DNA from: a virus
DNA: 64,000 nt
Virus record (IMG/VR): IMGVR_UViG_3300026292_000623
Coordinates: 1 to 64,000 of that record
Reading direction: 5' to 3' (one strand)
The position numbers and the translations under genes were made by a program. The notes beneath the pieces are model-generated. The model saw only the letters and a list, made by a program, of their open reading frames with translations, did not search any database and was not told the DNA's origin. Below are positions 1 to 54,132 of the stretch, in pieces. Position 1 is the first letter of the stretch, and each line of letters begins with the position of its first letter.

Positions 1-248
1 CTTTTAGCCCACCAAGGCCATTTTTTTACTCTGCTTAATAGTGGTCCTAATATCCATTCTAGTAATCTACTATATGCTGACCAAAAACGATCACTAATAT
101 TGTAAGGTGGTGTTTTTAATATTATTAATACAAATGCTATCCACCAAACCCATATTGGATGATCTTCACTTACGCCATATCCAAACATAAAAGGCAAAAT
201 TAATGCCGTTAGATATAAACCTATATAATTTCTTAAATGATTAAACAT
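1..248 (-). CDS. Membrane protein, runs off left edge
   Basis: The first 82 codons of a minus-strand gene are visible and it continues past the window edge. The protein begins MFNHLRNYIGLY and has two hydrophobic segments, at about residues 9-24 and 32-45, so it is probably an inner-membrane protein. The ATG lies inside the last codons of the upstream amidinotransferase gene (8 nt overlap), which suggests translational coupling in one operon. I do not recognise the family. The reading frame is clear, but the full length and function are not. Confidence 0.6.
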   Translation of the reverse strand, partial: MFNHLRNYIGLYLTALILPFMFGYGVSEDHPIWVWWIAFVLIILKTPPYNISDRFWSAYSRLLEWILGPLLSRVKKWPWWAK

Positions 249-1305
249 AACTTTCACAATCTCCTTCTCTAACTATATCACTTGTTAAGCAATGGATACC
301 ACCATCCCAAAAATACTGATGACGGAAGTTCCAATAAATTGGTTCAATACCATGTGCTTCCATTTCAGCAAAGGCAGTTTCATTTTTACCTGTACATATT
401 ACTGTACTCTCGTCTATTGACAATACGTTTACATCAAATACACTTTCATCTGGACAGCCTACCCAGTGACTTAACCATTTGCTTACATACTCTTTATGAA
501 ATCTTTGTTTACGAGTTTTTTGAAAATCTTCTGGCATATCAAAATTATCAGCCACTTCTATTATAGTCCAATTCTTCATTTCTTCTGGTACCCAGTTTTT
601 ATTCCAGGTCATTAGTACGCCAGGTTTTAGCAATGCAATTTTGCCATCGATATGTCCTCCGACTGGTATGTCCAAAAATTGTGTCTTAGGATATCGCAAC
701 TTTATTTCACGTTGAATCCATTCACGGCCCAGTTCCGTACCTTTTCCTCGCTTATTGTCTCCCTCGTATGGTTGACTAAACAATACACGGTCCCCACACT
801 TTATCATGTTAGCCGCATGATAAAGTAAGCGATGATTCTCTACAAAGTAGTCATATTTTTTGCCACTTTCAATCATTGCTCCTGGCATACTAACCCAATC
901 AGCACCCTCACGAAACCATTTACTACAATGATCGTAATATGCTAAATTCTCAAAGTATCTATTATCACTTCCTGTATAAATTTCAAATATTGTATTACCG
1001 TAAGGCATTAATGTATCACGTGGCATTAATGGATGATTAGGGAATCTACAATGCATCCAAGGTAATTGGATTAATTCTCCAGCAGTTATTGTGAATATGT
1101 CTTTTGGTCTTACAACCTCAACACCTTTGTCTTTTAATATGTTTTCTAATACGGTTAAATCTTCGGCAGTTTCCCTAAATATCTGCTCCATGACATTTCT
1201 AGTTTCTTCATCTTTATGCCATGAAAATGTTTCTGGGGGAAACGGAGCACCTAATATAACCCGTTTGAGCGGCTGAAACTCGCTCCATACATTTACTGAT
1301 TTCAT
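241..1305 (-). CDS. Amidinotransferase (arginine:glycine type)
   Basis: A 354-residue protein of the arginine:glycine or inosamine-phosphate amidinotransferase family (pentein fold). These enzymes move the amidino group of arginine onto an amine through a cysteine intermediate. The active-site pieces are visible: GGHIDG at residues 216-221 (His218) and FWDGGIHCLTSD near the C-terminus (nucleophile Cys339). The length is close to the family norm of about 350-400. The acceptor amine cannot be read from the sequence. It is the first minus-strand gene of a divergent pair and is translationally coupled to the membrane protein downstream. A paralogue lies at 5973-7202. The family is a confident call; the substrate is unknown. 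Confidence 0.88.
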   Translation of the reverse strand: MKSVNVWSEFQPLKRVILGAPFPPETFSWHKDEETRNVMEQIFRETAEDLTVLENILKDKGVEVVRPKDIFTITAGELIQLPWMHCRFPNHPLMPRDTLMPYGNTIFEIYTGSDNRYFENLAYYDHCSKWFREGADWVSMPGAMIESGKKYDYFVENHRLLYHAANMIKCGDRVLFSQPYEGDNKRGKGTELGREWIQREIKLRYPKTQFLDIPVGGHIDGKIALLKPGVLMTWNKNWVPEEMKNWTIIEVADNFDMPEDFQKTRKQRFHKEYVSKWLSHWVGCPDESVFDVNVLSIDESTVICTGKNETAFAEMEAHGIEPIYWNFRHQYFWDGGIHCLTSDIVREGDCESYV

Positions 1306-4853: not shown

Positions 4854-4916
4854 TTATTTTTGATTTAGTATTCTTTTAAGCAAATCTACGTATTTTTTAT
4901 ATTCTTCTTTACTCAT
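4854..4916 (-). CDS. 20-residue peptide, coupled to upstream gene
   Basis: A very short ORF encoding MSKEEYKKYVDLLKRILNQK, a charged amphipathic helix. Its ATG overlaps the stop of the class II aaRS-like gene (ATGAGTAA, 8 nt overlap) and is preceded by a strong AGGAGA ribosome site. Both favour real translation. It has no recognisable domain. The ORF could be a chance start after a good SD, so confidence is limited. Confidence 0.4.
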   Translation of the reverse strand: MSKEEYKKYVDLLKRILNQK

Positions 4917-5736
4917 TATTTTCTCCTAGTTTATCTAATGCTGAAATCATTCTTGTCATTCCAATTCCACCACCTACTCTTGGAAAAAAGTCAAACTCTA
5001 AGAATTTTTCTAATTCTGCTTCTACACGTTCTTTACCAAACAAGTCAAATAGTAACTTACTATATGCACCGTCTGTGATTGTATGGAATGTATCACGCAT
5101 TTGCTCTACGTCTGTAGAACGCTCTGCTGATCCTATTGTTTCCATTCCACCTAGTATTACATCTATCTTTTTACTTGTACCATCAGTATTTCTACTCATA
5201 TTCCAGAAAGGACTTGTAAACTCTGGAAAGTCAGTTATACTGCAACTACCAAACTTTTCGTACATATCAGTTTCGTGTTCAGCTTTTAGTTCGCCTTCTA
5301 CTTTGTAGTATGTTTGCCACTCTGCATAAGTTTTTTGAGTTATTGGATCAAACCCTAAATGGTCACATAATTCAATTTCCATTTGCCTTAAGTCATTTAT
5401 GTCTCCTGGCATTTCAAATTCAAACATTGGAAATATTATATCGTGTCTTCCTGGTATTGCATTTGGTTCTTGTCTATATGAAGTACTTACACAAAAGAAT
5501 CCTTTTGATTCTGGTTCTGTAAGTAACTCGTGTTCTAGCCACATTTGGCCTGTTTGTGGAAGTGGCCATACTTGGCCTGCATACTTGTATGTTGCTACAT
5601 TGAACGGATCTTCACAAGCCGCTAATATAGATAATCTGTTTTGGGTATGAACTTCTTGGAAGCCTTTAGCCAAAAAAAATGACCTTAAAAGGCCAACTGT
5701 CTTCGTAAATTTTACGGGGGATATTAACTGTGTCAT
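4909..5736 (-). CDS. Class II aaRS-like enzyme (AsnRS/AspRS core)
   Basis: A 275-residue protein matching the catalytic core of class II, subclass b aminoacyl-tRNA synthetases (Asp/Asn/Lys type). Motif 2 is visible as STSYRQEPN followed by GRHDIIFPMFEFEM (residues 84-110), and motif 3 as GGGIGMTRMISAL (residues 256-268). There is no N-terminal OB-fold anticodon-binding domain, so a normal tRNA synthetase role is unlikely. Stand-alone cores of this type include archaeal asparagine synthetase-like AsnRS paralogues and EpmA (PoxA), which activate an amino acid as the adenylate and pass it to a non-tRNA acceptor. It sits near the amidinotransferases and radical SAM genes, suggesting small-molecule or protein/DNA modification. 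The acceptor is unknown. Confidence 0.75.
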   Translation of the reverse strand: MTQLISPVKFTKTVGLLRSFFLAKGFQEVHTQNRLSILAACEDPFNVATYKYAGQVWPLPQTGQMWLEHELLTEPESKGFFCVSTSYRQEPNAIPGRHDIIFPMFEFEMPGDINDLRQMEIELCDHLGFDPITQKTYAEWQTYYKVEGELKAEHETDMYEKFGSCSITDFPEFTSPFWNMSRNTDGTSKKIDVILGGMETIGSAERSTDVEQMRDTFHTITDGAYSKLLFDLFGKERVEAELEKFLEFDFFPRVGGGIGMTRMISALDKLGENNE

Positions 5737-5808: not shown

Positions 5809-5973
5809 TTATTTATCTTCTGCGTCTTCTTTTAATCTAAATTTAATGTTGCAATATCCACATACTGCTTCTCCACCATCTGGTATAGTATAATATACTT
5901 TAGGGTGATCACCTTCTGGATCTCCAGTACATGAAACTTTCTTGTCATCTACATATATTATTGTTTGTTCCAT
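5809..5973 (-). CDS. Small CHCC zinc-finger protein
   Basis: A 54-residue protein with the spacing Cys-x8-His-Pro-x15-Cys-x2-Cys (SCTGDPEGDHPKVYY, then EAVCGYCNIKF), the pattern of the CHCC zinc-finger family that includes the NDUFS6 subunit of complex I and small alphaproteobacterial proteins. It therefore probably binds one zinc ion. Its ATG overlaps the stop of the amidinotransferase upstream (TAATG), so it is translationally coupled. The role in a phage is unknown; a small partner or regulator of a neighbouring enzyme is possible. I checked the reading frame codon by codon. Confidence 0.65.
   Translation of the reverse strand: MEQTIIYVDDKKVSCTGDPEGDHPKVYYTIPDGGEAVCGYCNIKFRLKEDAEDK
5810..5817 (-). 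promoter_or_regulatory. T4-late-like promoter box
   Basis: GATAAATA on the minus strand, overlapping the last codons of the zinc-finger gene and about 74 nt upstream of the aaRS-like gene start at 5736. It is one mismatch from TATAAATA. Position and similarity are the only support. Confidence 0.35.
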
Positions 5974-7202
5974 TATCTTCTTAACTCGTTATTGCCCCAT
6001 AAACGACCAAAATCAATTCCTTGATCTCCACGTTCTGGAAAATAGTCTTCACAGTCTCCTTCACGTTCTAAATCACTTGTAGCACAATGCAACCCACCGT
6101 CCCAGAAGAATCTGTGCCTCATATTACAGGTAACAACATCTACTTTATGCTTACCTAATCTATCTTCAAGTTCTTTAGCAGGTCCACTAGCAATTACTGT
6201 ATTCTCATCAACACTTAAACAATTTACATCAAAATTAGTCTCCCAACAAGCACCTACACTAGGGTGCATATATAAGTCAATAAACTTATGTAATGCTTCG
6301 TTTTGTTCTTCGCCTGCTATCCAATAATCTGCTACTGGTCTTTTTTTGTTTAATCTCCATTCGTCTTTTATTGCTACTCTATAATCTTGCCAAGCAGATG
6401 TGTGATCGTTATGCTTTCTGTCTATTTTAATCACGTCCCAACCTGGATATGTTTCTTCGTATTTGTTTACGTTTGTATGACTAATAAGTAATCCTGGTCG
6501 TATTAGAGCTAATACTGCATCTGTATGTCCACCCATAACTGTAGTATTGATTCTAAAATTGTATCCATATATTTCATTAAACTTTTTAAACCATTCAACC
6601 AATACTTTAGTAGGACCATTAAAGTCATGCAAGTCAATCATAATATCTCTACCAGTTCTCATAATACTAGGCCATGAAATAGCAAATCCTTTACCAGGAC
6701 TTATCTCTTGGCATTCTTTTATTATGTTTAGTTCATTATTTGCATCTGCTAAATCTATGTAATCATTACAGCCTGCCCAAGGTGCATATTCGTCTTTATT
6801 AAAAATGTTATCTTTATCTATTATTGTTTTATTCCATTTTCCAAAAACAGAATCAGTTTTTCCAGTTAATAGTTTTTCACCAAATATAATTTGATCATCT
6901 CTAGGTGTATTAAATGGTCTTGGTATGTATCCTTCTTCCTCTACAAATTCAGTTACACTTTCATATCTTTTATGATCTACAACACAAGTATCTGGCATTC
7001 TGTAAACTTTTACACCGTAGCTTTCTGTTAATACTTTACAAAAATAATCCAAGTCTTCTCTGGTTTCTTCATTTACTTTAGTCATTACGTCTGCTACTTT
7101 TTTATCATGATAGTCTTCAAAGAAACCTTTTGGAAATACATTTCCTACCATTACCTTTGTTAGTTTATCCCAACTATTATAACTTTTAAATCCAAAATTC
7201 AT
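5973..7202 (-). CDS. Amidinotransferase paralogue
   Basis: A 409-residue second member of the arginine amidinotransferase family, longer than the one at 241-1305. It shows GGHTDAV (His226) and the C-terminal FFWDGGLHCATSDLEREGDC with nucleophile Cys373. It shares the DVN/DVNCLSVDENT block and the RHRFFWDGG / RHQYFWDGG motif with the paralogue, but overall similarity is limited, so the two probably use different acceptor amines. About 36 residues follow the catalytic Cys. Both enzymes would use arginine and release ornithine. It lies downstream of a radical SAM gene (77 nt gap) and is coupled to the zinc-finger gene. Confidence 0.87.
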   Translation of the reverse strand: MNFGFKSYNSWDKLTKVMVGNVFPKGFFEDYHDKKVADVMTKVNEETREDLDYFCKVLTESYGVKVYRMPDTCVVDHKRYESVTEFVEEEGYIPRPFNTPRDDQIIFGEKLLTGKTDSVFGKWNKTIIDKDNIFNKDEYAPWAGCNDYIDLADANNELNIIKECQEISPGKGFAISWPSIMRTGRDIMIDLHDFNGPTKVLVEWFKKFNEIYGYNFRINTTVMGGHTDAVLALIRPGLLISHTNVNKYEETYPGWDVIKIDRKHNDHTSAWQDYRVAIKDEWRLNKKRPVADYWIAGEEQNEALHKFIDLYMHPSVGACWETNFDVNCLSVDENTVIASGPAKELEDRLGKHKVDVVTCNMRHRFFWDGGLHCATSDLEREGDCEDYFPERGDQGIDFGRLWGNNELRR

Positions 7203-7279: not shown

Positions 7280-8536
7280 TCAATCGAGTTCATTTCTAAT
7301 TCGTTCAAACTCGGGCGACACTTTGGTAACAGTTTGTTTCCTGAATCTGTCGTAGTTTTCAGTGACTTTGACGTACTCACGCATGATGCTAGGATCATAC
7401 TTATGCTTACGATCAAGACTAAAATTAACCACTTCCATAAGAGGTTCTTCATACTGTTTAAAGTGTGGACTGTTTCCGATACTTTTAAGAAATTCCAATA
7501 TTTGTTCACGTTGTCTCTCTTTCAACCATTCTGGAGCATGAGCCATACTGTAATATTGAGGTTCTATAAGTTGATTAGTACTCATACCAATACCTCTATT
7601 ACTAGTCATTTGGTAGTCATGCATAAACTTCCAAAATTTTGTAATGTGAAGTGCATTAGTCATCTGGTTAACTGTAGTAACTCTTACCTTAATACGTTTA
7701 CCTTCTTTAGTATCTGCGAACTTAACTAACTTGTCAAAGTTTTTCCAAACACTATTCCATTTAGATGGCGGTCTTAAATAATCGTTCATTTCTCCCATAC
7801 CTTCTAATGAGCAATTAACTATTACACGTTCAAACTTACTTAATTGTTCTAACCATTTGTCTTGCATATTAGTAATGTTTGTATAAAAACTTAATTCAAT
7901 ATGTTCTGCGTGTCCACTTTCTACTGCAAGATCTAATAGTTTAAACATATCTTTGGCTACTGTTGGTTCACCTCCGATTAATTTTATTTTACGAGCATAC
8001 TTTAACATAGGAGTAAAACTTTCCCATTCTATTCCTGGTTGAAGTAATGCTTCTTTTTTATCTGCAATCATGCCTTTCCAATCCTTGTGATCTACTCCAA
8101 GTCCTTGGTCTATCATTTTTGCACGTTCTATACTTACCAAATGTGATGCTTCTTTATTACACATTTGACATTGTAAATTACATAAATTTCCTAGTCTAAA
8201 ATCAAATTGTAATGGTTGATCTACTTTCCAATCGTTAGCTGATGCATCAGCTACTACATCGTCAATTACATCTTTCCATTGTTCGTTTTCCCATTGTCTT
8301 GAACTCATAATACCATTACGTTCCAAGTGTTGACATTCTCCACATTCAGGTAACCATTCACCTGCTGTCATTTTACGTCTTACTTCTTTTACATAGTCAT
8401 GATTCCAAGTACCTTCAATGCCTAGTTCTTCTTGATTAACTAACTTCTTAGGTTCTTTAGCCATACAACATAGCCTATAACGTCCACCGTTATATGTACT
8501 ATATTGAACAAATGGTAACGAACAAAATCCGCTCAT
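7280..8536 (-). CDS. Twitch-domain radical SAM enzyme 1
   Basis: A 418-residue protein from the ATG at 8536; a longer frame exists upstream but would overlap the nucleosidase gene. The radical SAM cluster motif is CNLQCQMC at residues 119-126 (Cys119, 123, 126). An N-terminal auxiliary-cluster domain precedes it, with GFCSLPF (Cys5), YRLCC (Cys23, 24) and ECGEC (Cys65, 68). This is the 'twitch/SPASM placed first' arrangement shared by the enzymes at 9078, 10366 and 46688. KLIGGEPTVAKD follows as the SAM-binding GGE motif. Enzymes of this kind use 5'-deoxyadenosyl radicals on sugars or peptides; the substrate is unknown. It is the third of three radical SAM genes in the block. Confidence 0.87.
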   Translation of the reverse strand: MSGFCSLPFVQYSTYNGGRYRLCCMAKEPKKLVNQEELGIEGTWNHDYVKEVRRKMTAGEWLPECGECQHLERNGIMSSRQWENEQWKDVIDDVVADASANDWKVDQPLQFDFRLGNLCNLQCQMCNKEASHLVSIERAKMIDQGLGVDHKDWKGMIADKKEALLQPGIEWESFTPMLKYARKIKLIGGEPTVAKDMFKLLDLAVESGHAEHIELSFYTNITNMQDKWLEQLSKFERVIVNCSLEGMGEMNDYLRPPSKWNSVWKNFDKLVKFADTKEGKRIKVRVTTVNQMTNALHITKFWKFMHDYQMTSNRGIGMSTNQLIEPQYYSMAHAPEWLKERQREQILEFLKSIGNSPHFKQYEEPLMEVVNFSLDRKHKYDPSIMREYVKVTENYDRFRKQTVTKVSPEFERIRNELD

Positions 8537-8537
8537 A

Positions 8538-9077
8538 TTATATACACATCTCCAAAAAGGCACCAGCACCTTTTGATTGATTATTTTCCCATTCTATTGC
8601 CGCATTCTCATCAGCAAAATCTGTTACGTATTTGTAACATATAAATGGTTTATTAAAATGTCTACAAACCTTTGCTATACCGTAAGATTCCATATCAACT
8701 ACATCACTTGTAAGTTCTGGTGGTGCTTGTACAAAATTATCACCACTACTACAACTCCAAGCACTATTAGAAATTTTTAAATCTCCTTCAAATCCTGTTT
8801 CTTCAAATGGTGTAACACCTAAATCTGCTTGTGGTCTTGCATCCATATCACGTTGTTTAACTGTTCCTATTTGAATTAATTGTTCTGCTAGTTCTTTATT
8901 TAATGCACCAGCAGTTCCGTAATTAATAATTGCTTCGCAATCCTTTTGTATACAAGCCATAGTGGCAAACATTGTAGCATTTACTTTACCTACTCCATGA
9001 TACCATACTTTAAATTGTTCTGGATCTAAGTCATGCTCCGGCAATTCATTCTTTAACGCAATTAGTATATATTTCAT
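8538..9077 (-). CDS. MTA/SAH nucleosidase-like (PNP/UDP superfamily)
   Basis: A 179-residue nucleoside phosphorylase/hydrolase-fold enzyme. Visible motifs are GVGKVNA (nucleotide loop), INYGTAGAL, CSSGDNFV, VDMESYGIAKVC (substrate-binding Met-Glu) and KYVTDFADENA (catalytic Asp region). The order matches 5'-methylthioadenosine/S-adenosylhomocysteine nucleosidase, although it is shorter than the usual 230 residues. Such enzymes also split 5'-deoxyadenosine, the inhibitory by-product of radical SAM catalysis. It lies between radical SAM genes (1 nt from each neighbour), which strongly suggests by-product clearance. Alternatives are a purine nucleosidase for nucleotide scavenging or a futalosine-type hydrolase. 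Confidence 0.8.
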   Translation of the reverse strand: MKYILIALKNELPEHDLDPEQFKVWYHGVGKVNATMFATMACIQKDCEAIINYGTAGALNKELAEQLIQIGTVKQRDMDARPQADLGVTPFEETGFEGDLKISNSAWSCSSGDNFVQAPPELTSDVVDMESYGIAKVCRHFNKPFICYKYVTDFADENAAIEWENNQSKGAGAFLEMCI

Positions 9078-10391
9078 TTATCTTTCCTCTATATCTAAAT
9101 ATTTCAAATCTTCACCAAAATGTTTCCAGTTCTGACTTAAACCATGCTTCTTTAGCATTAACTCTTTTGTCAGATGCTGATTATCTAGATTTCCTTTTTC
9201 GTCTATATAAAATCTTGCAACATCAAGCATTCTGCCCATAGGACTTTTTCTTGCTGGTGGGTTACTGTTTTCCCAATCGTCCCATCTTTTTTTAATTCTA
9301 TTTTTTGTTTCCTGACTTAGATTTCTAAAATCTATATATGTATTTGATTCTTCATACTTTGAACTTAATATTGGATTTACATTAAACCAGTCTATTTGTT
9401 TATCACCTACTTTATCATATAACCAATCTGCTATATCAGTTATTTGTCCTATGTTTAATGCAGTCATGACTGTATTACTACTAAACTCAATATTTATTTC
9501 ATTTGCTAACTCTCTGTACCTATTAGTATTATCTTCTATCTGTTGCCATTTATATTTTCCTGGTCGTTGTAGTGTAACTTTTTCTCCTACTCCGTCAAGA
9601 CTAAAAATAATAATTATTTTTCCAATCTTTTTCCAAGATTCAATTACCCTTTTACTAGGAAAGTGACTAGCATTAGTATGATATTCTATTGCTAGATTTT
9701 TTGGATTCTCATTTTGTTGAATAACTTTTTCTAACAAGTCATCATGTTTGTGTTCCAGCATAGGTTCACCACCAACAAATTTTAGATAACGTAATTCAGA
9801 TAAATCATCATTTATATTATCATTAGATTCGTGAAAACCTTTTGGAATCTTTGTCTTAGGATTCTGTATACTAAAAATTGTACTACTGGCTTGAGGTCCG
9901 CACATAATACAAGCCATATTACAAAGACTGCTTATTCCTGTTTCTAAGTATCTTATTTTTGAAGGCCCTGGTGTAGTATCTCTGGTTTCTACTTTTACAT
10001 CAATATTTAATCTAGGAAGACTTCCTCTAACTAATTGATCACCATTGGCTTCTGCTATAAGTAAATCATTTTCCATACCCCAACATTTTCCACATTGGTA
10101 TGGTTTTTTACCTTCACTCATTTGTTTTCTTATACCAGTAAAATATTCACCTTCTCTGGCTTGTTTTAATCCGTCTCGAATATGAGGAGCATCATCATTT
10201 TTTGTTCTAGGGCCAAAAAATCTGCAACATGGCATAACTTCACCACTAGGTCCTACTGCGGCACCAGCCCAAAGATATGCACAATAACTTGCAGTAGGCA
10301 AGTCTGCTAATCTTTCTTTGATAGTCTTTGGGACTAACTTTCCATCTACTACAATATGTCGAGTTCTATTCTGTTCCATCTTTTGGCTCAT
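9078..10391 (-). CDS. Twitch-domain radical SAM enzyme 2
   Basis: A 437-residue protein. The N-terminal auxiliary cluster domain has SYCAYLW (Cys37), VMPCC (Cys55, 56) and YQCGKC (Cys100, 103). The radical SAM motif is CNMACIMC (Cys157, 161, 164), followed by KFVGGEPMLEHK. The first 26 nt overlap the end of the gene at 10366. An alternative start four codons downstream is equally possible since neither has a strong SD. Sequence divergence from the adjacent paralogues suggests distinct substrates rather than recent duplication. The stop abuts the nucleosidase start directly. Confidence 0.87.
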   Translation of the reverse strand: MSQKMEQNRTRHIVVDGKLVPKTIKERLADLPTASYCAYLWAGAAVGPSGEVMPCCRFFGPRTKNDDAPHIRDGLKQAREGEYFTGIRKQMSEGKKPYQCGKCWGMENDLLIAEANGDQLVRGSLPRLNIDVKVETRDTTPGPSKIRYLETGISSLCNMACIMCGPQASSTIFSIQNPKTKIPKGFHESNDNINDDLSELRYLKFVGGEPMLEHKHDDLLEKVIQQNENPKNLAIEYHTNASHFPSKRVIESWKKIGKIIIIFSLDGVGEKVTLQRPGKYKWQQIEDNTNRYRELANEINIEFSSNTVMTALNIGQITDIADWLYDKVGDKQIDWFNVNPILSSKYEESNTYIDFRNLSQETKNRIKKRWDDWENSNPPARKSPMGRMLDVARFYIDEKGNLDNQHLTKELMLKKHGLSQNWKHFGEDLKYLDIEER

Positions 10392-11796
10392 CTAGTAAGT
10401 AAGCCATTTCAGGAAATGTTGCACGGAAATCCGTGCCACGAAGTTTATCTAGTTTTTTAATGTATTCTCTAAACTCAGGAAGCCTACGGGTCCAGTCTTC
10501 ACTTTTAGCAAACTTAATCATGCCACGTAAACGTTTAATTCCATAACTAGCTTCTAACCATTTTTCATAAGGTACTTTGCCTTTGTGCCAGCTTGGAACA
10601 CCTAGTTCCCAATTCTTCTTCCACCATTCAATAAACTCTTCATACTTGGCTTCAGTCTTATCTAAAAACTCTCTTGGTAATACTTTAACATTCAAATGTC
10701 CTGGCCAATATACAAAGTGATAATTAATACCACCTGCACCAAATGGCCACATATTAGTTTTCTTTAGTCCGCTTTCCTGAAGTTTCCATTTAAGGAAATC
10801 TGGAATATAATGAATGTTTAAAGCATTAACTGCACAGGCAATAGTTACTTCTACATTATTCGAAGTCATTGTATCCAAACGTTTGAACTGTTTTAAATTA
10901 TGTTCCCACTCACTTGGATATCTTATATAATCATTCATAGCACCGATACTATCAACACTATAATGCATACGAACTTTTTGAAAATGTTTCCATTGCTCAA
11001 GTAACCTATCTGGTAACTCAATACAGTTTGAATTGTAACGCACTTCAATTTGGTGTGCGTAACCCATTTCAATAACTTTATCTAAGATCTCATAATGCTC
11101 TTCAATAACAGTTGATTCTCCACCTGCAAAATATAATTGTCTAATATATGGAATCTGTTTCCAAAACTGATCCCAAAATTTTGGATTGTCTTTGTGCCAA
11201 TTATAACTTGCTTCAAATTCTCTACCTTTTTTCTCCCATACCATAGTATCTTTGAGTGTTTTATTTTCAATTTGTGGGTGTAATGCTTTCCAGTCTTTAA
11301 CCCAACCACTCGAGTCATGTGGGCTACACATAACACAGGCTAGTTGACATTTAGTTCCCATACGTATATCAATATAACGAAGTTTACTGTCAGTACTTCC
11401 ATCTTCGTATGTTTCTCTTTTTAATTGTTCTATGTCAATCCCGTCTTTAATCCAGTAGTCCGTTTCCCATTGTCGCTTACTCCTATGTCCTGCGGCCTCT
11501 TCCTTGTAGCACTTTAAACAACTTGCCGGTTTGTCGCCTTCCATCATCATCTTACGTACACTTCTCATATAAGAATTATTCCAGCTACTATCTAAATCTG
11601 AATTATTTAAGTTGGCAGGTCTGCCATCTTCTAGTTTCAAAACTCCAACACGACCACCATGCTTTTTGTCGTTTGTAGCACCTACCGAACTTGCATTCGC
11701 GGTACAACATACTCTCATACTTCCATCTGGTCTCGTTGATAAATGAATCCATGGTAGGATACAAAAAGTATCCGAGGGTAACTTATTATCTGACAT
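10366..11796 (-). CDS. Twitch-domain radical SAM enzyme 3
   Basis: A 476-residue protein from the ATG at 11796 (MSDNKLPS), the start favoured by an AAAGGA-type SD; an earlier in-frame ATG at 11826 is less likely. Auxiliary-cluster cysteines are TFCILPW (Cys12), VCC (Cys30, 31) and SCLKC (Cys93, 96). The core motif is CQLACVMC (Cys150, 154, 157), and YFAGGESTVIEEH is the GGE-type SAM loop. A late-like box lies at 11836-11843. It is the first of the run of three radical SAM genes, and the region is probably read as one late operon. Confidence 0.87.
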   Translation of the reverse strand: MSDNKLPSDTFCILPWIHLSTRPDGSMRVCCTANASSVGATNDKKHGGRVGVLKLEDGRPANLNNSDLDSSWNNSYMRSVRKMMMEGDKPASCLKCYKEEAAGHRSKRQWETDYWIKDGIDIEQLKRETYEDGSTDSKLRYIDIRMGTKCQLACVMCSPHDSSGWVKDWKALHPQIENKTLKDTMVWEKKGREFEASYNWHKDNPKFWDQFWKQIPYIRQLYFAGGESTVIEEHYEILDKVIEMGYAHQIEVRYNSNCIELPDRLLEQWKHFQKVRMHYSVDSIGAMNDYIRYPSEWEHNLKQFKRLDTMTSNNVEVTIACAVNALNIHYIPDFLKWKLQESGLKKTNMWPFGAGGINYHFVYWPGHLNVKVLPREFLDKTEAKYEEFIEWWKKNWELGVPSWHKGKVPYEKWLEASYGIKRLRGMIKFAKSEDWTRRLPEFREYIKKLDKLRGTDFRATFPEMAYLLDEPKDGTE

Positions 11797-11855: not shown

Positions 11856-12560
11856 TTAAATAATATATGTAGTTTCTACAGATCCTTTATTTACTAGTTC
11901 CCAAGTTTCGTCTGTAGCATTGCCTGTTAACTGCAAACAAGGGCGTTTACGCCAACTTCCGTTCCAAGTTAAATGAGGTAGTGTACTCCACTCCCACGTG
12001 AATATAGTACCTGCTTTCCATTGTGTATATACACGATTACCAAATTGAAATATCTGTCCTGGCTCCCAATCTTCCATAGGAATTAGGAACCTTATTTTGT
12101 TATCGTTTTGATATTTAAAATCAGGATTATCAATAACTCGTTCAGCACGTGGATTACCTGGTAAGTTATCTATATGCCACATAAGCTGATCATTAGGATA
12201 TTGATCATTAAACTTACAGGTAAGTTTATCATCTTTGTTAAATTTTAAAAAATCTGTAATTTTTGTAAATGTAGGGAATTCGCCTGGAAACTTATCAAAG
12301 TTCACTTTACGGAACATAGTGGCTTCTGGTTTGCCATCTGGGTTCTCTTTATCTTCTTCTACGTGATCTTGGCTTTTTTTGTTAGCGGCGTGTTCGTATC
12401 TTTGTTCGTTGTAGTTTTGATTCTGTACACCTTTAGATCTAGCTAACTCTATTTCATCTGTCCAGTCGCCTACAAAACGACCTATAATTTTTACATATTC
12501 GCCCTCTTTATCTTCTCTGAATTTATCAAAGTGCCAAGGGCTTTTAAAAGGTGATCCCAT
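11856..12560 (-). CDS. 2OG/Fe(II) oxygenase-like (beta-hydroxylase type)
   Basis: A 234-residue protein. The C-terminal half contains MWHIDNLPGNPR (possible HxD metal pair, about residue 145), RFLIPMEDWEPGQIFQFG, the turn WKAGTIFTWEW, then LPHLTWNGSWRKRPCLQLTG with a distal His. That order fits aspartyl/asparaginyl beta-hydroxylase-type 2-oxoglutarate oxygenases. The N-terminal half is charged and not recognised. It is separated by 1 nt from the sulfotransferase-like gene and precedes the radical SAM run, so it probably belongs to the same modification pathway. The substrate is unknown. Confidence 0.6.
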   Translation of the reverse strand: MGSPFKSPWHFDKFREDKEGEYVKIIGRFVGDWTDEIELARSKGVQNQNYNEQRYEHAANKKSQDHVEEDKENPDGKPEATMFRKVNFDKFPGEFPTFTKITDFLKFNKDDKLTCKFNDQYPNDQLMWHIDNLPGNPRAERVIDNPDFKYQNDNKIRFLIPMEDWEPGQIFQFGNRVYTQWKAGTIFTWEWSTLPHLTWNGSWRKRPCLQLTGNATDETWELVNKGSVETTYII

Positions 12561-13232
12561 TTATCTCTCCGGAATTGTTGCTGATGCAATATAAACATCT
12601 GAATGCTTATGTTTATTTACCTCTGCATACTCCAAAGATTTATCTAGGTTAAATGAATTCCAATTTTTAAATAGTTCTGTATTCCACGGTTTAAAGTCTA
12701 ATCCTTTACGTATTGCAAAGTCTGTAATATTAGAACTTTCTCTCCATAGTAGTTCCCACATTCTATCGTAGTTTTTATATCCTGGTCTATAGTCTGGATA
12801 GTGTGTTTCATCAAAGCACATAACTTCACTCCACCAAGCGAAGCTTTTTTGTGGTTCTCTATAAACTAATATAATTTTATCACCTGGGAAATGATTCCAT
12901 ATGTAATCTAAATTAAAGTGCCTAGCAAATACATGGCCTTTAATAATACGATATCCTTGTCCAGAAAATACCCCATTTATGTCATCTATTAATTTGTGTG
13001 GTTTGAAAAAATTAAAGTCTTCCCAATCTTCACCACAGCCCATACCCGGACCCCAATAACTACCACGATGTCCATTGTTGGAATCATTTGGATCTACTGG
13101 TCTATGATATTGAGTTCTTTCTGGAGTTTCGTCTGTACGATCACAAGATAAGATAGAGCGAAGTTGAATATCTAGTCCGCTCCATCTAGATCCTGGTATA
13201 CCGCATAGCCATACATTTATATTATTTGTCAA
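12561..13232 (-). CDS. Sulfotransferase-like P-loop protein
   Basis: A 223-residue protein. NVWLCGIPGSRWSGLD at the N-terminus resembles the phosphosulfate-binding loop of sulfotransferases. KIILVYREPQKSFAWW near residue 135 resembles the 3'-phosphate-binding segment (arginine and serine after a beta strand). If correct it would transfer sulfate from PAPS to a glycan or small molecule. The start codon appears to be TTG, supported by an AGGAAAA ribosome site 5-7 nt upstream and overlapping the previous gene by 11 nt. Similar P-loop proteins occur at 32359 and 51737. The assignment is moderate; some conserved residues are hard to place. Confidence 0.55.
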   Translation of the reverse strand: MTNNINVWLCGIPGSRWSGLDIQLRSILSCDRTDETPERTQYHRPVDPNDSNNGHRGSYWGPGMGCGEDWEDFNFFKPHKLIDDINGVFSGQGYRIIKGHVFARHFNLDYIWNHFPGDKIILVYREPQKSFAWWSEVMCFDETHYPDYRPGYKNYDRMWELLWRESSNITDFAIRKGLDFKPWNTELFKNWNSFNLDKSLEYAEVNKHKHSDVYIASATIPER

Positions 13233-15023: not shown

Positions 15024-16199
15024 TTATGCCGCTTCGTAATGTACTGTTACACCAAATGGTGCTTTAATTCTTTTTTGCTTATCACTATGGATTACAAAAA
15101 GTGAATCACAGTAGTCTGGGTTTCCCCAACTCTCCCAAGGGTATCCGTCTGTGAACATGACTAACTGATCTGGATTGATGTCGTTCAATTCCATATAGTT
15201 ATAAACTGCATCAAAGTCAGTTCCACCACCACCTTCAAGTCGGTAGTCGCTCATAGTTCGTCCATCATCACTATGGAATTCTTCAACACCATAAACCTTA
15301 GTGTCAAATTGCATAATAGTAACATTATAGCTATTATACTGATCCATAATACCCTGTACTTCAGATAGGAAGTCACGAAGCATATCTTGACTTATACTTC
15401 CTGAAGTATCTAATGCAATCGCTATATTCAATTGCTCGTCCTTATTCATACCAGGAAAAATAACTTCTCCTGACCTTTTACTTGGACGCATAAAAGTAAA
15501 ATCGTTTTTAAGAGAACTTTCTAATTGTGTTCTAAGAATATCTCTCCAATCCATTTTAGGAGCAACTAATTCGTTAATCATTCTCTTAACAGAATCAGGC
15601 ACGTCCATTCCAGCATTTTGTGCCGCTTGGATTGCCGCTTGTTTAATTTCGTCTGCTAGTGCTTTCTTTTCTTCTTCACTTAATTCAGCACCTAAACCTT
15701 TACCACCTTCGCCATCTTCATCACCTGGTTTAATCTCTTCCAAGTGTACATCCATACCTTTAGCATCTTTTTTATTTGCTTTAAGATGGTCATAAATCTC
15801 ATAACTGTTCCAACCTTGATATTTCCAATCAAGACAAATTTTGCCACCACCTAGTTTATCTTCTGTAATTGGTTCACCTACATTTTGTTCAACTAGTGTC
15901 ATATTAATATTATAATCAGCCGCCGCATTATATAATTGCGGTTCTCTATCTCCTCTTGCCTGCATATGATCAAATACACAATGCAGTACTTCGTGACCCA
16001 CTAAAAAGTCTAACATAGGATCTGTTAAACTATTTACAAACTCACGATTAAAAAGAAACTTTCTACCATCTGTTGCCGCAGTAGGAAGATAATCAGCTTC
16101 TTCAATTTTTAATCTAACAGCCAATTGCCCAAAAAACGGTTTAGTTAATAGCAATCTAACTCTAGATTGTGTAATTCTTTCTTCAGCAGTTTTAATCAT
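15024..16199 (-). CDS. VWA-domain / metallopeptidase-like protein
   Basis: A 391-residue protein. The N-terminal part has HEVLHCVFDH (residues 69-78), a zincin HExxH-like motif, matching the putative metallopeptidase domain found with DUF2201-type VWA proteins. The C-terminal half is a von Willebrand A domain with the MIDAS sequence DTSGSIS (about residue 268), a Thr in GGGGTDFDAV, and FTDGYPW. It pairs with the MoxR ATPase encoded just upstream, as in other MoxR/VWA chaperone systems and in the CobS/CobT-like pairs of cyanophages. It has its own sigma70-type promoter (16230-16258). The target is unknown. Confidence 0.85.
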   Translation of the reverse strand: MIKTAEERITQSRVRLLLTKPFFGQLAVRLKIEEADYLPTAATDGRKFLFNREFVNSLTDPMLDFLVGHEVLHCVFDHMQARGDREPQLYNAAADYNINMTLVEQNVGEPITEDKLGGGKICLDWKYQGWNSYEIYDHLKANKKDAKGMDVHLEEIKPGDEDGEGGKGLGAELSEEEKKALADEIKQAAIQAAQNAGMDVPDSVKRMINELVAPKMDWRDILRTQLESSLKNDFTFMRPSKRSGEVIFPGMNKDEQLNIAIALDTSGSISQDMLRDFLSEVQGIMDQYNSYNVTIMQFDTKVYGVEEFHSDDGRTMSDYRLEGGGGTDFDAVYNYMELNDINPDQLVMFTDGYPWESWGNPDYCDSLFVIHSDKQKRIKAPFGVTVHYEAA

Positions 16200-16229
16200 C
16201 TTTATGTCCCTTATCTAACTTATAACTAT

Positions 16230-16258
16230 ATAATACTATCTTTACCAACATATGTCAA
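16230..16258 (-). promoter_or_regulatory. Sigma70-type promoter for VWA gene
   Basis: Minus-strand TTGACA (16258-16253), a 17-bp spacer and TATTAT (16235-16230). The start site should lie near 16223, giving a leader of about 24 nt with AAGGGA before ATG 16199. The -35 box overlaps the stop region of the gene upstream (16255). Confidence 0.8.
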
Positions 16259-16593
16259 CCTTTATGTGACAATTTAAATACCATTGCATCTGGTTGGTTT
16301 TTAAAGAAAACTCTATCATTTTCGATATGAAAATCTTGGTGATAAAAGTGTTTTCTACAAAATTTAGTTATCCAAGTCTTATGTCCTTTACTATATAATG
16401 GAATAATTTCGCAGTTTTTCATCCATTCTTTCTTGTATTTACTAATATCACTAGCACTATAATCTTTAAATTCTAATCCGTATAATCTAATATTAGTTCT
16501 CTGCCTTGGGGTGAATTGGGAGAGATCTATTGTCTCTCCCTCTTTTAATTTAGGCGTCAAGTACGAGTCTACCATATCGGTTAAAGTACTCAT
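16255..16593 (-). CDS. Hypothetical protein
   Basis: A 112-residue basic protein from ATG 16593, where GAGG lies 4 nt upstream; the frame extends one TTG codon further. It contains many His, Lys and aromatic residues (CRKHFYHQDFHIEN). No family was recognised. It overlaps the end of the MoxR gene by 44 nt, suggesting coupling with it, and may be a small partner of the MoxR/VWA pair. Confidence 0.5.
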   Translation of the reverse strand: MSTLTDMVDSYLTPKLKEGETIDLSQFTPRQRTNIRLYGLEFKDYSASDISKYKKEWMKNCEIIPLYSKGHKTWITKFCRKHFYHQDFHIENDRVFFKNQPDAMVFKLSHKG

Positions 16594-17674
16594 CAAACCT
16601 CTCTATTTTTTGTTGCTTAGGTACCAACTTGTATTGTTGCATTGCTATTCTAGAAGCCATAACAACCATTTCAGTTTCAAAGTTATCCATCATAAAGCTG
16701 ATGAAGTTTGAGAAACTTTTATGGTACTTGTCCATAACTTTAGAACTAGCACCTGCTTTTTCACCAGCTATAAATCTATCTCTCAACTCATAACATAGTG
16801 ATGTAGCAAGAGCATACATAGCTGATACTTCAGTGTTCTCAACTTTTTTAATTTTAGCATCTAACACATCTTCAGGAACAGGAAGGTCTCCTGCTATTTT
16901 TCTATGAGCCATAAACTTGACAGCAACACCTTCTCCTACACAACCTGCAACCATATCTGTTTGTAGGCTTTCAGAAAGTTCATCACCATCTTCTAGTAAT
17001 TCTGAAGTAAATGTCCAAGCCCTTGGTGTAGCAAATCCACGTGAACTTGATTGTGGATCAAAGTTATAAAGATCACCTTTAGCAAATGAAAGGTATCCAA
17101 CTACATCTGGGTTAACATTATTATGAACTGCCCAATTTAACCAATCTTGGAAATCAACACGTAGTTCAAAGTGTACGAATCTATTCTCAAGTGGCTTAGG
17201 CATTCTATAAGTAACACCTTTGTCAGTCTCTCTATTACCAGCGGCAATTAAAACTACATTGTCTGGCAACACATACTGACCAATTCGTCTATTAAGGATT
17301 AACTGATAACCTGCGGCTTGTACACTAGGAGCGGCAGAGTTCATCTCGTCTAAGAAAACGATAACAGTATCAAACTGTTTCGCAAATTCTTCTGAAGGTA
17401 AATCAGCTGGTGGTAACCAAACCATTTTACCATTTTTTAAATCTGGAGCTGGATAACCTCTAAGGTCAGTTGGCTCAAATAAAGCAAGTCTCATATCAAC
17501 AACGTGAGTCTTACCTAATGCACCAGAATCTCCAATACCTTGGATTAATTCTGATTTACCAATTCCTGGAGGGCCCCATAAAAATACAGGTCTCTTCTTT
17601 TTAAAAGCCCTAGTAATCAAAGTAGTGGCTTCGCTAATTTTTACAGTTCTTGTATCTGATATCGCAGTTTGCAT
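16550..17674 (-). CDS. MoxR-type AAA+ ATPase
   Basis: A 374-residue AAA+ ATPase. Walker A is GPPGIGKS (residues 34-41), Walker B is VIVFLDEMNSA, sensor 1 is VLIAAGNRE, and an arginine-finger region is LENRFVHFEL. This pattern is typical of MoxR/CobS-like chaperone ATPases that act with VWA proteins. The start at 17674 is chosen because GAAGGA lies 6 nt upstream. The earlier ATG at 17710 coincides with the predicted transcription start and has no SD. It has its own sigma70-type promoter. It probably remodels a protein or inserts a metal cofactor together with the VWA protein. Confidence 0.88.
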   Translation of the reverse strand: MQTAISDTRTVKISEATTLITRAFKKKRPVFLWGPPGIGKSELIQGIGDSGALGKTHVVDMRLALFEPTDLRGYPAPDLKNGKMVWLPPADLPSEEFAKQFDTVIVFLDEMNSAAPSVQAAGYQLILNRRIGQYVLPDNVVLIAAGNRETDKGVTYRMPKPLENRFVHFELRVDFQDWLNWAVHNNVNPDVVGYLSFAKGDLYNFDPQSSSRGFATPRAWTFTSELLEDGDELSESLQTDMVAGCVGEGVAVKFMAHRKIAGDLPVPEDVLDAKIKKVENTEVSAMYALATSLCYELRDRFIAGEKAGASSKVMDKYHKSFSNFISFMMDNFETEMVVMASRIAMQQYKLVPKQQKIERFDEYFNRYGRLVLDA

Positions 17675-17718
17675 TTTTTGTCCTTCTTCTAAGTTTGCTT
17701 TCTTTGGCATATAATATT

Positions 17719-27292: not shown

Positions 27293-27724
27293 TTATCCTA
27301 TTAGTTTTGCTATTGAATCTTCTGTATATTCCCTAGCACCTTCATCATCGCCATCACACTCAAGCCTATCTGCTATTCGTGTTGCACCAAGTGCTTCCAT
27401 ACGTGCATCTATCTTTTTACCTGCACCACAGAAATTTGTATGCGAACTATCTCCTAATGCACATACTGCATATTTTGTCTTACTTAAATCAAGTTCTGCT
27501 TTTTCTAGTTCACTATAAAAGTTATCACCATTAGTAGGTACATCACCTTGTCCTGTGCTACTAGAAACAAATATAACATTTTCCATTGCTTGGAAGTCTT
27601 CCATAGAAACATCATTCATCTCAAATATTTCTACGCCTTTATCTTTTACTTTTTCGTGAACATCGTTTGCAACATCTTCTGCGGTTCCAAACATAGACGC
27701 CCATAATATATTTACTTTTACCAT
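27293..27724 (-). CDS. Flavodoxin
   Basis: A 143-residue FMN protein. The phosphate-binding loop is ASMFGTAE, the isoalloxazine loops are SSSTGQGDVPTNG and ALGDSSHTNFCGAG, all in the right order, and the length is close to that of flavodoxins (140-175). It would carry low-potential electrons. In bacteria flavodoxin reduces the [4Fe-4S] cluster of radical SAM enzymes, and many such enzymes are encoded here. It could also feed ribonucleotide reductase or ThyX. ATG 27724 overlaps the MetK stop, with GGGAG upstream. Confidence 0.88.
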   Translation of the reverse strand: MVKVNILWASMFGTAEDVANDVHEKVKDKGVEIFEMNDVSMEDFQAMENVIFVSSSTGQGDVPTNGDNFYSELEKAELDLSKTKYAVCALGDSSHTNFCGAGKKIDARMEALGATRIADRLECDGDDEGAREYTEDSIAKLIG

Positions 27725-28803
27725 CCTATTTTCTCCCACGGTACATCTTTATTACCAAAATGTCCAAATGTACAGTTCTTACTATACATATAATACTTGA
27801 ATAAATCAAATTTGTCAATGATTCCTTTTGGTGTTAAGTCGATATTTTCTTTAATGAACTTTTCAATACTTTTGTTATGTCCATTACTATCAACATATAT
27901 ACTTGTTGGTTCTTTAACACCAATAGCATAACTTAATTGAATACTACACCAATCAGCCATATTGTCAGCAACTACATTCTTTGCTAACCAACGTGCCATA
28001 TATGCCGCACTTCTGTCTACCTTCGTAGGGTCCTTTCCGCTAAAAGCGCCACCACCGTGAGGAGCAAAGCCCCCATATGTATCAACGATAATCTTTCTGC
28101 CTGTAAGACCAGAATCACCGTCAGGACCGCCGATAACAAAGTTACCGGTTGGATTAATATGCCATATAGTATTTTCATCAACTAAATCTCCTAATACTGT
28201 CATACCTGCTAATTTGCATATATTTCTTGCTTGTTCAATTTGACCATCACCGTGTTGACTACTAATAACAACTTGATCAACTCTTTTTGGTCTTCCACCT
28301 TCGTACTGAATACTTACTTGTGATTTACTGTCAGGACCTAGTACGTGTTGTCTTTGTGGTTTTAAAGTTTTAAGAATTTCGTGTGCATAAAATATAGGTG
28401 CTGGTAAGTATGCGTCATTATCATCACAAGCATATCCAAACATTATACCTTGGTCTCCTGCACCGAAGTCGTCTGTACCTAACCCAATATCTGAACTTTG
28501 TGAATGTAATTCATTGTAGACTTTTAACTTATCCCAATGAAATCCATCTTGTTCATATCCTATTTCTTTTACTTTATCTCTAATTATTTGTTCTACTTCT
28601 TCATTAGTAACATTAAAGTTTTTAACTTCACCTGCTACTGTTACAAGATTAGTAGTTACAAGAGTTTCAACTGCTACTCTTGTGGTATCATCGCCTGCTT
28701 TAAGACCCGCATCAACAAGAGCATCACTGATTTGATCTGCTACTTTGTCTGGGTGCCCATCACTAACACTTTCGCTAGTAAAGACATAATTACCTTGTTT
28801 CAT
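27718..28803 (-). CDS. metK: S-adenosylmethionine synthetase
   Basis: A 361-residue methionine adenosyltransferase making SAM from methionine and ATP. Signature GHPDKVADQISDALVDAG at residues 16-33, the hexapeptide GAGDQGIMFGYA, and the P-loop GGGAFSGKDPTKVDRSAAYMARW are all present. It is about 20 residues shorter than the E. coli enzyme (384). A phage MetK is unusual; here it sits directly between flavodoxin and sufE/iscU genes in an overlapping operon, with ATGA coupling to sufE. It would raise SAM supply for the many radical SAM enzymes and methyltransferases in this window. Confidence 0.95.
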   Translation of the reverse strand: MKQGNYVFTSESVSDGHPDKVADQISDALVDAGLKAGDDTTRVAVETLVTTNLVTVAGEVKNFNVTNEEVEQIIRDKVKEIGYEQDGFHWDKLKVYNELHSQSSDIGLGTDDFGAGDQGIMFGYACDDNDAYLPAPIFYAHEILKTLKPQRQHVLGPDSKSQVSIQYEGGRPKRVDQVVISSQHGDGQIEQARNICKLAGMTVLGDLVDENTIWHINPTGNFVIGGPDGDSGLTGRKIIVDTYGGFAPHGGGAFSGKDPTKVDRSAAYMARWLAKNVVADNMADWCSIQLSYAIGVKEPTSIYVDSNGHNKSIEKFIKENIDLTPKGIIDKFDLFKYYMYSKNCTFGHFGNKDVPWEKIGW

Positions 28804-46676: not shown

Positions 46677-46705
46677 ATTGTAGCAGATTAAAGGTTACTT
46701 GTCAA
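46677..46705 (-). promoter_or_regulatory. Sigma70-type promoter
   Basis: TTGACA (46705-46700), a 17-bp spacer and TACAAT (46682-46677) on the minus strand, starting in the 3' end of the radical SAM gene at 46688. It drives the gene starting at 46641 and the exonuclease. Confidence 0.78.
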
Positions 46706-47830
46706 GTCTTTTTGTATTGATTTATAGAAGTCGGTAAACTCTGGAAATGCTTTTTCAAATGAGTTACCATGATAGTTATCATGTCTATTGATAATATTTT
46801 TTCTGCTCCACAAGTCTGGTTGTGTTGGTTTTATATTTTTAAATGCCATTTGTATATTTGGGTAATCTTTCCAATGTTCAACTAGTTTATCTAAATGCTC
46901 TTGTGGTAAACAATCAATGCTTAAATCATATGGGTTGGTAACAAAATTATGCCTCACTTTATCAACATATTTAGATAGGTTATCAAAAACATACCTGGCC
47001 GCATATGAGTTTGGCCAACCTATGGCTGTTCTTATTGTTGTGTGTATTGATTCTGGATCAGTTTGTTTAAATTTATGAAACTCTTTTAGATTATTAAAAA
47101 CTGTATTCCACGTACCTTTATGTCTCCAATAGTTATGTTGATCTTCTATACAATCTATACTGATTGCCAAGTCAACGTCAGCAAATCCACTTACAGTTTC
47201 AAAAACATCATAGCCATGTCTTTTTAATATACTGCCATTGGTTGATATACTTATACTAGTTTCTTTTTCTCTGCCTAGCTCTTTAATCTTATTACATATC
47301 TCATAAAAAGATTTGGTCATTAATGGTTCACCTCCTGCAAACGATACGTGTTCTACAGTATGTAAATTATCTAAACATTGTTTTAATTCGTGTACGTTAT
47401 TAAGTACTCCTGTCTTTCCAAGTTGACCTTCAATTTTGGCGTGTGTACTGCTCAAATAACTGCCACACATTTTACAACTAAAATTACATAGATTACTTTC
47501 TCTATAATCTAAATACCTTAGTACAAACTTATCCGGTTGCCATGGGCGGTGTTCATTTAAATATTTTTCATTGAATTCTTGTCTTAATGATTTAGTTCCT
47601 TTTTGCTCTTGCGATACACAATTAGTACACATAGATGGAAGTATATCAGAATCTAACATAATCTTTTTGAACTTTTCCATTTCTGGATGTGTGAAACGTT
47701 CTTCAAAAGACATATGTCTTTTTTCTTTATTGGGAATTAATATTTTATTTGCTTCGCAACATACTTGTACACCTCCATTAGTATGATCATATGTTGTTAT
47801 CCACGGTGCTATACAAGACGGCTTTTTCAT
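46688..47830 (-). CDS. Twitch-domain radical SAM enzyme 4
   Basis: A 380-residue protein with the same 'auxiliary domain first' layout as the enzymes at 7280-11796: SCIAPW (Cys6), VQVCC (Cys24, 25), MCTNC (Cys68, 71), then the radical SAM motif CNFSCKMC (Cys115, 119, 122) and SFAGGEPLMTKS. It is the most compact of the four. The ATG overlaps the next radical SAM gene's stop by 1 nt, so two radical SAM enzymes of different type are produced together. Confidence 0.87.
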   Translation of the reverse strand: MKKPSCIAPWITTYDHTNGGVQVCCEANKILIPNKEKRHMSFEERFTHPEMEKFKKIMLDSDILPSMCTNCVSQEQKGTKSLRQEFNEKYLNEHRPWQPDKFVLRYLDYRESNLCNFSCKMCGSYLSSTHAKIEGQLGKTGVLNNVHELKQCLDNLHTVEHVSFAGGEPLMTKSFYEICNKIKELGREKETSISISTNGSILKRHGYDVFETVSGFADVDLAISIDCIEDQHNYWRHKGTWNTVFNNLKEFHKFKQTDPESIHTTIRTAIGWPNSYAARYVFDNLSKYVDKVRHNFVTNPYDLSIDCLPQEHLDKLVEHWKDYPNIQMAFKNIKPTQPDLWSRKNIINRHDNYHGNSFEKAFPEFTDFYKSIQKDLTSNL

Positions 47831-48924
47831 TATTTAAATTGTTCAGCAAATGGATCGAACTCTGTTCCACATTTCATTGAACATACGCCTAGCTTTCCAT
47901 TTTTGATACTATCTAATTTCCAACTACGTTGTATATCCTGCATGATACCACTTGCGAATACTCCTTCTATTCCGTGTAACTTTGCATTTATCCCATCTTT
48001 ACCACCAGCTCTATCAATAAAGTCCCATATCTGTTCTACTTTAGGATCTTCGTGCCACCACTTATACATTCTACCTGCTGTCCAACAACAAGGCATTATT
48101 AATCCTTCTGCGGTTACAAATATACTATTCTTTTCACCGTTAGCTACTTTACATTTTATTTTAGCTTGGTTGTAATAATTCATCATACCACCATAACTTT
48201 TCTCTATCTCTTTTTGTTTTAATAAAGCAAGGTTTTGGTGTTCTTTCTTTTGTGGTTTTGCTAGTACGGTTGTCTGCTCCCCTTTTCTATTACGTGCTTG
48301 ATGTATCTCTTTTGGCTGACTTGATTGAGTAATAAAACGCCCTGTCTTCTTTTTCATAAACTTCTCAACGCCCCACTCTTTGGCTAACTGTTCAGCTCTA
48401 TCTACATCTTTTTCACTATGTTCAAATATTAAATAATCCCATCTTGCTCTTCCACCTGCATTAATAAATGCTTTCATATTACGTTCAACGTGTTCCCACT
48501 TAACACCTTGTCTATATAAATGATTAGTTTCTTCTAGTCCATCTACACTAAAGATTACACAACCTTTTTTGCCTATAACTTTAGCTACTTCTGCCCACCA
48601 TTCAGGTTTCTTTGCACCTGCATTAGTGTTCATACTTAACCACATATTAGGATTACAATCACGAAACCATTGAAATATTTCTAATGTATCTCTGGCACTA
48701 ATAGGATCACCCAAGTTACCACACATATACATCGTGTGTAATTGAGCTATAAAATCGTGTGGAAATATATCAATACAATGATCTAATGTAAGTTCTGCTT
48801 CTTTACCTTTGATGTGTGGATTTACTTCGCCGCCATTGACATTACGATCACACATAGGGCATGATGCATTGCACCGTTGGGTCACTTCGAGGTGAACTTC
48901 GTTTATGGCATTGTACTTGTACAT
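47830..48924 (-). CDS. Radical SAM enzyme with C-terminal SPASM domain
   Basis: A 364-residue protein. The radical SAM motif CNASCPMC is at residues 18-25, MCGNLGDPISARD is the SAM loop, and the C-terminal SPASM-type auxiliary domain has IKCKVANG, LIMPCCWTAG and a terminal GVCSMKCG. This is the usual order, in contrast to the twitch-first enzymes. A close relative is split over two genes at 54133-55046. Substrate unknown; SPASM proteins often modify peptides, sugars or nucleotides. A late-like box (48941-48948) precedes it. Confidence 0.88.
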   Translation of the reverse strand: MYKYNAINEVHLEVTQRCNASCPMCDRNVNGGEVNPHIKGKEAELTLDHCIDIFPHDFIAQLHTMYMCGNLGDPISARDTLEIFQWFRDCNPNMWLSMNTNAGAKKPEWWAEVAKVIGKKGCVIFSVDGLEETNHLYRQGVKWEHVERNMKAFINAGGRARWDYLIFEHSEKDVDRAEQLAKEWGVEKFMKKKTGRFITQSSQPKEIHQARNRKGEQTTVLAKPQKKEHQNLALLKQKEIEKSYGGMMNYYNQAKIKCKVANGEKNSIFVTAEGLIMPCCWTAGRMYKWWHEDPKVEQIWDFIDRAGGKDGINAKLHGIEGVFASGIMQDIQRSWKLDSIKNGKLGVCSMKCGTEFDPFAEQFK

Positions 48925-54131: not shown

Positions 54132-54132
54132 C

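Follow-up and report, generated by a model that had tools for sequence, protein, structure and literature searches.

At positions 7280–11796 of a DNA stretch from an uncultured virus (IMG/VR record IMGVR_UViG_3300026292_000623, whose first 64,000 of 72,213 bases were analysed and are referred to here as the window), three radical S-adenosylmethionine (SAM) enzymes with an N-terminal twitch domain are encoded around a nucleosidase. The family of this nucleosidase acts on 5′-methylthioadenosine (MTA), S-adenosylhomocysteine (SAH) or 5′-deoxyadenosine. The run is conserved in gene order and under selection, and it probably represents the 5′ part of a multi-step viral radical SAM biosynthetic (tailoring) cluster, in which the nucleosidase would remove 5′-deoxyadenosine.

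All four open reading frames (ORFs) named in an earlier interpretation of this DNA (the sequence-only reading) are present on the minus strand: rsamA (7280..8536, 418 amino acids (aa)), nuc (8538..9077, 179 aa), rsamB (9078..10391, 437 aa), which is an optional member, and rsamC (10366..11796, 476 aa), the most conserved gene of the run. As described there, nuc is placed between rsamA and rsamB, the first and second enzymes. Together with two upstream partners (sulfo and oxy) and a downstream amidinotransferase-like gene (AT2), the genes are transcribed in the order sulfo, oxy, rsamC, rsamB, nuc, rsamA, AT2, with junctions from sulfo through rsamA of 0, 59, −26, 0 and 1 nucleotides (nt). The 1-nt gaps reported previously therefore apply to rsamA/nuc, while nuc and rsamB abut directly and rsamB and rsamC share a 26-nt overlap. 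Ratios of nonsynonymous to synonymous substitution rates (dN/dS), determined against two relatives, lie between 0.05 and 0.28 across all genes of the run, with the minimum in rsamC, a value of 0.09 in rsamA and the maximum in rsamB (0.20–0.28). Every tested gene of the run is thus under purifying selection.

Using the relatives that IMG/VR yielded for each gene, we mapped the neighbourhoods on 21 distinct rsamC contigs that reach through rsamA. The order rsamC–nuc–rsamA is kept in 21/21 contigs, and sulfo and oxy are found upstream of rsamC in 20/21 and 15/21, respectively. The slots beside nuc are more variable and hold (i) an orthologue of rsamB in 5 contigs, (ii) another radical SAM gene in 3, (iii) ORFs of unknown function in 6 and (iv) nothing in the remaining 7. 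One further contig (L068) carries rsamC and nuc with no rsamA within 10 kb. Independent movement of the genes without conserved partners, which the sequence-only reading had named as the outcome that would speak against a common pathway, is therefore not what the relatives display, with the exception of the optional rsamB.

Twitch-first enzymes and nucleosidase

All three enzymes match the NCBIfam model NF033640 (N_Twi_rSAM, twitch domain-containing radical SAM protein) above its curated cut-off of 170 bits, with scores of 310 bits for rsamA, 215 bits for rsamB and 413 bits for rsamC and with alignments that are near full-length. Because of these matches, the twitch-first order, earlier regarded as unusual, is a known trait of a family that is defined by it and that has four members in the window. 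The predicted arrangement of an auxiliary C...CC...CxxC motif ahead of CX3CX2C was recovered in all three proteins as an N-terminal C-x17-CC-x(40–61)-CxxC followed by CX3CX2C, a pattern that occurs in 0/3000 shuffles of each sequence. The auxiliary cysteines 5, 23, 24, 65 and 68 and the radical SAM cysteines 119, 123 and 126 of rsamA are invariant in 11 homologues, both sets of cysteines of rsamC are invariant in 39 homologues, and eight cysteines of rsamB are conserved in its full-length orthologues. Matches to rsamC were found in 484 IMG/VR stretches. The three enzymes do differ widely, at pairwise identities of 21–29%, as had been noted; since the corresponding E-values are significant and hhalign detects homology in the twitch domains as well as in the cores, they are old paralogues and not unrelated enzymes.

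The nucleosidase belongs to the PNP_UDP_1 family (PF01048, 62.8 bits at a cut-off of 25.1), and most of the relatives retrieved for it from the PDB are MTA/SAH nucleosidases (MTAN chains). It holds counterparts of Glu12, Phe151, Met173, Glu174 and Asp197 of E. coli MtnN, of which the catalytic Glu12, Glu174 and Asp197 are conserved in nuc and its homologues. The E. coli MtnN sequence that served as the reference for this mapping agrees with the PDB alignment. The scores of nuc stay below every NCBIfam equivalog cut-off (PRK05634, 75.2 versus 129 bits; PRK05584, 63.2 versus 169 bits), so that its exact substrate is not assignable by profile. 5′-Deoxyadenosine is both a by-product and an inhibitor of radical SAM enzymes and is removed by Pfs/MtnN (PMC8102628; PMC10986504), and for this reason clean-up of radical SAM waste would be the simplest and most likely role of nuc. 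In two distant contigs (L139 and L141), a nuc homologue is likewise found inside a radical SAM array, the copy in L141 being very divergent; support in the nuc tree is too weak to tell a single from a repeated origin of the copies linked to radical SAM genes.

Flanking genes, cluster extent and bacterial counterparts

Directly upstream of rsamC, oxy (11856..12560, minus strand) had been called oxygenase-like. Its HxD...H residues (H129, D131 and H196) are invariant in 16 homologues, in line with that call, although oxy has no match in Pfam, no match to a 2-oxoglutarate oxygenase family profile and no convincing match in the PDB; by its motif it is a possible Fe(II)/2-oxoglutarate oxygenase. 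The adjoining sulfo (12561..13232, minus strand) is a conserved partner ORF whose resemblance to sulfotransferases, seen by eye, was not borne out by Pfam searches with 18 homologues or by the PDB. On the other side of the block, AT2 (5973..7202, minus strand) follows rsamA, is present in some relatives and belongs to the same family (PHROG 25854) as AT1 (241..1305, minus strand), the final gene before the end of the contig. AT1 is predicted to be an amidinotransferase, as it aligns over most of its chain to HsvA (4.6e-24), SxtG, inosamine-phosphate and arginine:glycine amidinotransferases in the PDB with E-values from 8e-13 downwards, and in the majority of relatives it follows the block on the downstream side.

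The contig stops just past AT1, and the window covers no more than the beginning of the cluster. In a close relative (G008, rsamC 98% identical) and in a 184-kb record (G003), about 14 radical SAM genes are found in roughly 38 kb. This longer run adds further radical SAM genes, an aminotransferase-like gene, an aspartyl/asparaginyl hydroxylase (PF05118) and a dehydrogenase-like gene, and its last gene encodes a radical SAM protein termed c2. Matches to the N_Twi model reach up to 25 per record (G003), the weaker ones being other radical SAM proteins. The multi-step modification pathway first suggested from the window is supported by this cluster of about 14 radical SAM genes together with the invariant linkage of rsamC, nuc and rsamA.

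Orthologues of rsamC, most of them at 51–64% identity, also occur in contigs of metagenome-assembled genomes (MAGs), chiefly of Bdellovibrionota, among them contigs 328, 494 and 937 kb in length. They are accompanied by c2 (19/27 loci), by the small uncharacterised proteins c3/c4 and by rsamE, a radical SAM enzyme whose orthologue forms a pair with rsamC both in bacteria and in distant viruses. In three of these loci (L127, L133 and L135), the small rsamC set, or most of it, sits amid ordinary chromosomal genes. In the sampled Bdellovibrionota order rsamC is sporadic (6/60 genomes), by which a housekeeping function in that order is ruled out. Five Bdellovibrionota MAGs (G038–G042) hold 12–33 N_Twi model matches per genome, and we found no paper on this expansion.

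In the window itself, further radical SAM ORFs (46688, 47830, 52390 and 54133) form a second group at 46688–54762, far from the first. This second group comprises rsamD (46688..47830, minus strand), the fourth twitch-first enzyme of the window (NF033640, 232 bits), and rsamE (47830..48924, minus strand), in which the auxiliary cysteines are located at the C-terminus (C..CC..CxxxC in 26/26 homologues). Aligned by hhalign to this C-terminal domain, the twitch domain of rsamB reaches 92%, and those of rsamC and rsamA stay under 1%. A simple transfer of the domain between rsamE and the twitch-first enzymes is not established, as the rsamC and rsamA twitch domains gave no match. Within the same group, two uncharacterised proteins (51022–51726 and 50055–51035, minus strand; together 50055–51726) resemble c3/c4 by eye and have no Pfam or PHROG match. 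A further radical SAM match lies beyond the window at record positions 68699–69136.

Candidate supply genes form one overlapping run on the minus strand (27293–29584), with a flavodoxin (27293–27739) and a SAM synthetase (MetK, 27718–28803) assigned by Pfam, an ORF read by eye as SufE-like (28800–29198) and a NifU/IscU-type scaffold (29198–29584, Pfam NifU_N). The run may be an operon that supplies cofactors to the radical SAM enzymes. Further ORFs were read as QueE-like (30096–30992), FolE (GTP cyclohydrolase)-like (38634–39320) and TGT/DpdA-like (43277–44785), which suggests 7-deazaguanine chemistry on the viral DNA.

Among the other genes, those for a DUF2201/VWA metallopeptidase-like protein and a MoxR-type ATPase (15024–17710, minus strand) are retained on the upstream side of the block in almost every relative, and homologues of the VWA protein occur in 787 phage records. 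A catalytic domain resembling that of class II tRNA synthetases, only 275 aa long (4909–5736, minus strand; PF00152, PHROG 29758 at 438 bits), is common in this position to the closest relatives only. Two ORFs (58791–61357, minus strand) are similar to TctC and TctA of tripartite tricarboxylate transporters, and a comparable pair is present in a distant radical-SAM-rich virus (L149). The T4 neck model PF11649 matched in 0/14 records, with no match in any control either, which makes this model uninformative, and the Gp23 capsid model exceeded its cut-off only in G021 and G028, of which G021 alone belongs to the clade of this virus; the label of a T4-like virus was not adopted.

Proposed pathway and alternatives

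In the pathway that we propose, rsamC, rsamA and, where present, rsamB would each cleave SAM at the core [4Fe-4S] cluster, and the resulting 5′-deoxyadenosyl radical would act on successive intermediates or at distinct sites of a single substrate. An auxiliary [4Fe-4S] cluster may reside in the N-terminal twitch domain, where it would accept or donate an electron or bind the substrate. Spent 5′-deoxyadenosine, and also SAH or MTA, would be split by nuc into adenine and a 5-deoxy sugar, by which an inhibitor of the radical SAM enzymes would be eliminated. The virus-borne SAM synthetase would provide SAM, the flavodoxin electrons and the Fe–S assembly genes the clusters. In support of this pathway, the active site of nuc is intact, and within the clade nuc is present in 19/19 and SAM synthetase in 17/19 virus records, compared with 10/50,697 and 127/50,697 INPHARED phage records, respectively.

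Several observations weigh against this pathway. The analysis identified neither a substrate, a product nor a precursor. The clade counts include near-duplicate assemblies and shared ancestry and do not represent independent events, and among N_Twi-bearing records outside the clade nuc and SAM synthetase are present in 2/16 and 3/16, respectively. Since most such viruses lack these genes, neither of them is obligatory. The NifU scaffold occurs in only 5/37 records, on which ground viral Fe–S supply was rejected as a general rule. SAH released by viral methyltransferases is an alternative substrate of nuc. In addition, two viral records (G025 and G035) carry a nuc homologue apart from radical SAM genes, and in two contigs (L007, 9328–10558; L008, 7009–8913) the homologue adjoins, as judged by eye, an adenine phosphoribosyltransferase in an apparent adenine-salvage pair. 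Given these locations, a nuc-type enzyme can serve adenine salvage.

The proposed pathway may take one of two more specific forms, each of which we consider possible but doubtful. In the first, the cluster would modify a peptide or protein, either in a maturation resembling that of ribosomally synthesized and post-translationally modified peptides or in the hypermodification of virion or host proteins. The structure model of rsamC (predicted local distance difference test (pLDDT) score of 82.7; the rsamA model, at 57.7, was unusable) finds its best folds in the peptide-modifying enzymes SkfB and SuiB, PapB, MftC, DynA and SkfB are among the best profile matches outside NF033640, and the full cluster of G003 includes the aspartyl/asparaginyl hydroxylase. 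The fold matches are, however, weak (template modelling (TM) score ≤0.33 on the query), and similar scores are reached by viperin, BlsE and MoaA, whose substrates are nucleotides or small molecules. Furthermore, no candidate precursor was seen among the ORFs of the block, a scope outside which very short or remote precursors would lie.

In the second form, the product would be an unusual surface sugar, made by glycan or sugar-nucleotide modification, that alters host or virion glycans and thereby superinfection exclusion or adsorption. Pelagimyophages carry radical SAM cassettes in a variable host-recognition island together with glycosyltransferases (PMC7029224). Glycosyltransferases of the GT2 type and an aminotransferase-like protein are encoded in the Bdellovibrionota loci, the amidinotransferases are related to inosamine-type enzymes, and UDP-sugar dehydrogenase- and epimerase-like ORFs are present in the window. 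These sugar genes, however, lie outside the conserved block, and the minimal chromosomal sets have ordinary genes as neighbours.

That nuc is an independent gene for adenine or nucleotide salvage that merely became fixed in the operon is unlikely. The pairs with adenine phosphoribosyltransferase and the two copies remote from radical SAM genes would fit such an origin, but nuc is flanked by two radical SAM genes in all 21 contigs, in 7 of them with nothing else in between, and it is very rare in other phage records (10/50,697 in INPHARED). Modification of nucleic acid bases by the enzymes, alongside the QueE-, FolE- and TGT-like ORFs of the same virus, is highly improbable, as these genes show no linkage with the block, Pfam gave no match for the TGT-like ORF and the partners of rsamC on bacterial chromosomes are different ones.

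Extending the multi-step tailoring pathway beyond this virus, we tentatively suggest a new natural-product-like pathway class common to viruses and Bdellovibrionota. At least a dozen radical SAM enzymes of one co-directional cluster, the majority twitch-first, might act in series on one scaffold, assisted by a clean-up nucleosidase and by cofactor supply, and yield a molecule or modification that no organism is known to make. Radical SAM enzymes are costly in that they need a strong reductant, iron and SAM, and their number nonetheless reaches about twenty in some of these viruses. That a virus should in addition bring along SAM synthetase, flavodoxin and a nucleosidase for waste removal points to a product worth its cost during infection. 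The combination of rsamC, nuc and rsamA offers a small testable unit, and the bacterial sets of four to five genes offer a minimal version for the uncharacterised NF033640 family.

Comparison with known systems

The cluster is real, selected, conserved and bigger than the sequence-only reading had stated, and it assembles known families in an arrangement that we did not find described. The radical SAM richness of marine phages has been known since 2017, while the block with its nucleosidase was not found described in the literature searched. Nishimura et al. (2017; PMC5332604) reported marine T4-like viral genomes rich in radical SAM genes, among them one of 183 kb that has 12 such genes together with an Fe–S carrier, and others with IscU; domain order, cluster architecture and a nucleosidase do not feature in the passage concerned, whereas the records analysed here reach 25 N_Twi matches, weaker ones included. 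In the pelagimyophage island (PMC7029224), we found neither a nucleosidase nor this enzyme family.

With NF033640, rsamA, rsamB, rsamC and rsamD share the domain order and pass the cut-off; the library entry names no function, and neither a paper on N_Twi enzymes nor a characterised member was found in the literature searched. With the SPASM/twitch peptide maturases (SkfB, SuiB, PapB and anSME), the three enzymes of the block have in common a radical SAM core and a cysteine-rich auxiliary domain, but here the auxiliary domain precedes the core, and no precursor peptide was seen with them among the block ORFs. The nucleosidase shares with the MTA/SAH nucleosidases (Pfs/MtnN; PF01048, PRK05634-like) the fold family, the catalytic Glu/Glu/Asp and the adenine-binding residues; it differs from them in its short length of 179 aa, in scores below the equivalog cut-offs and in being embedded in a viral radical SAM operon.

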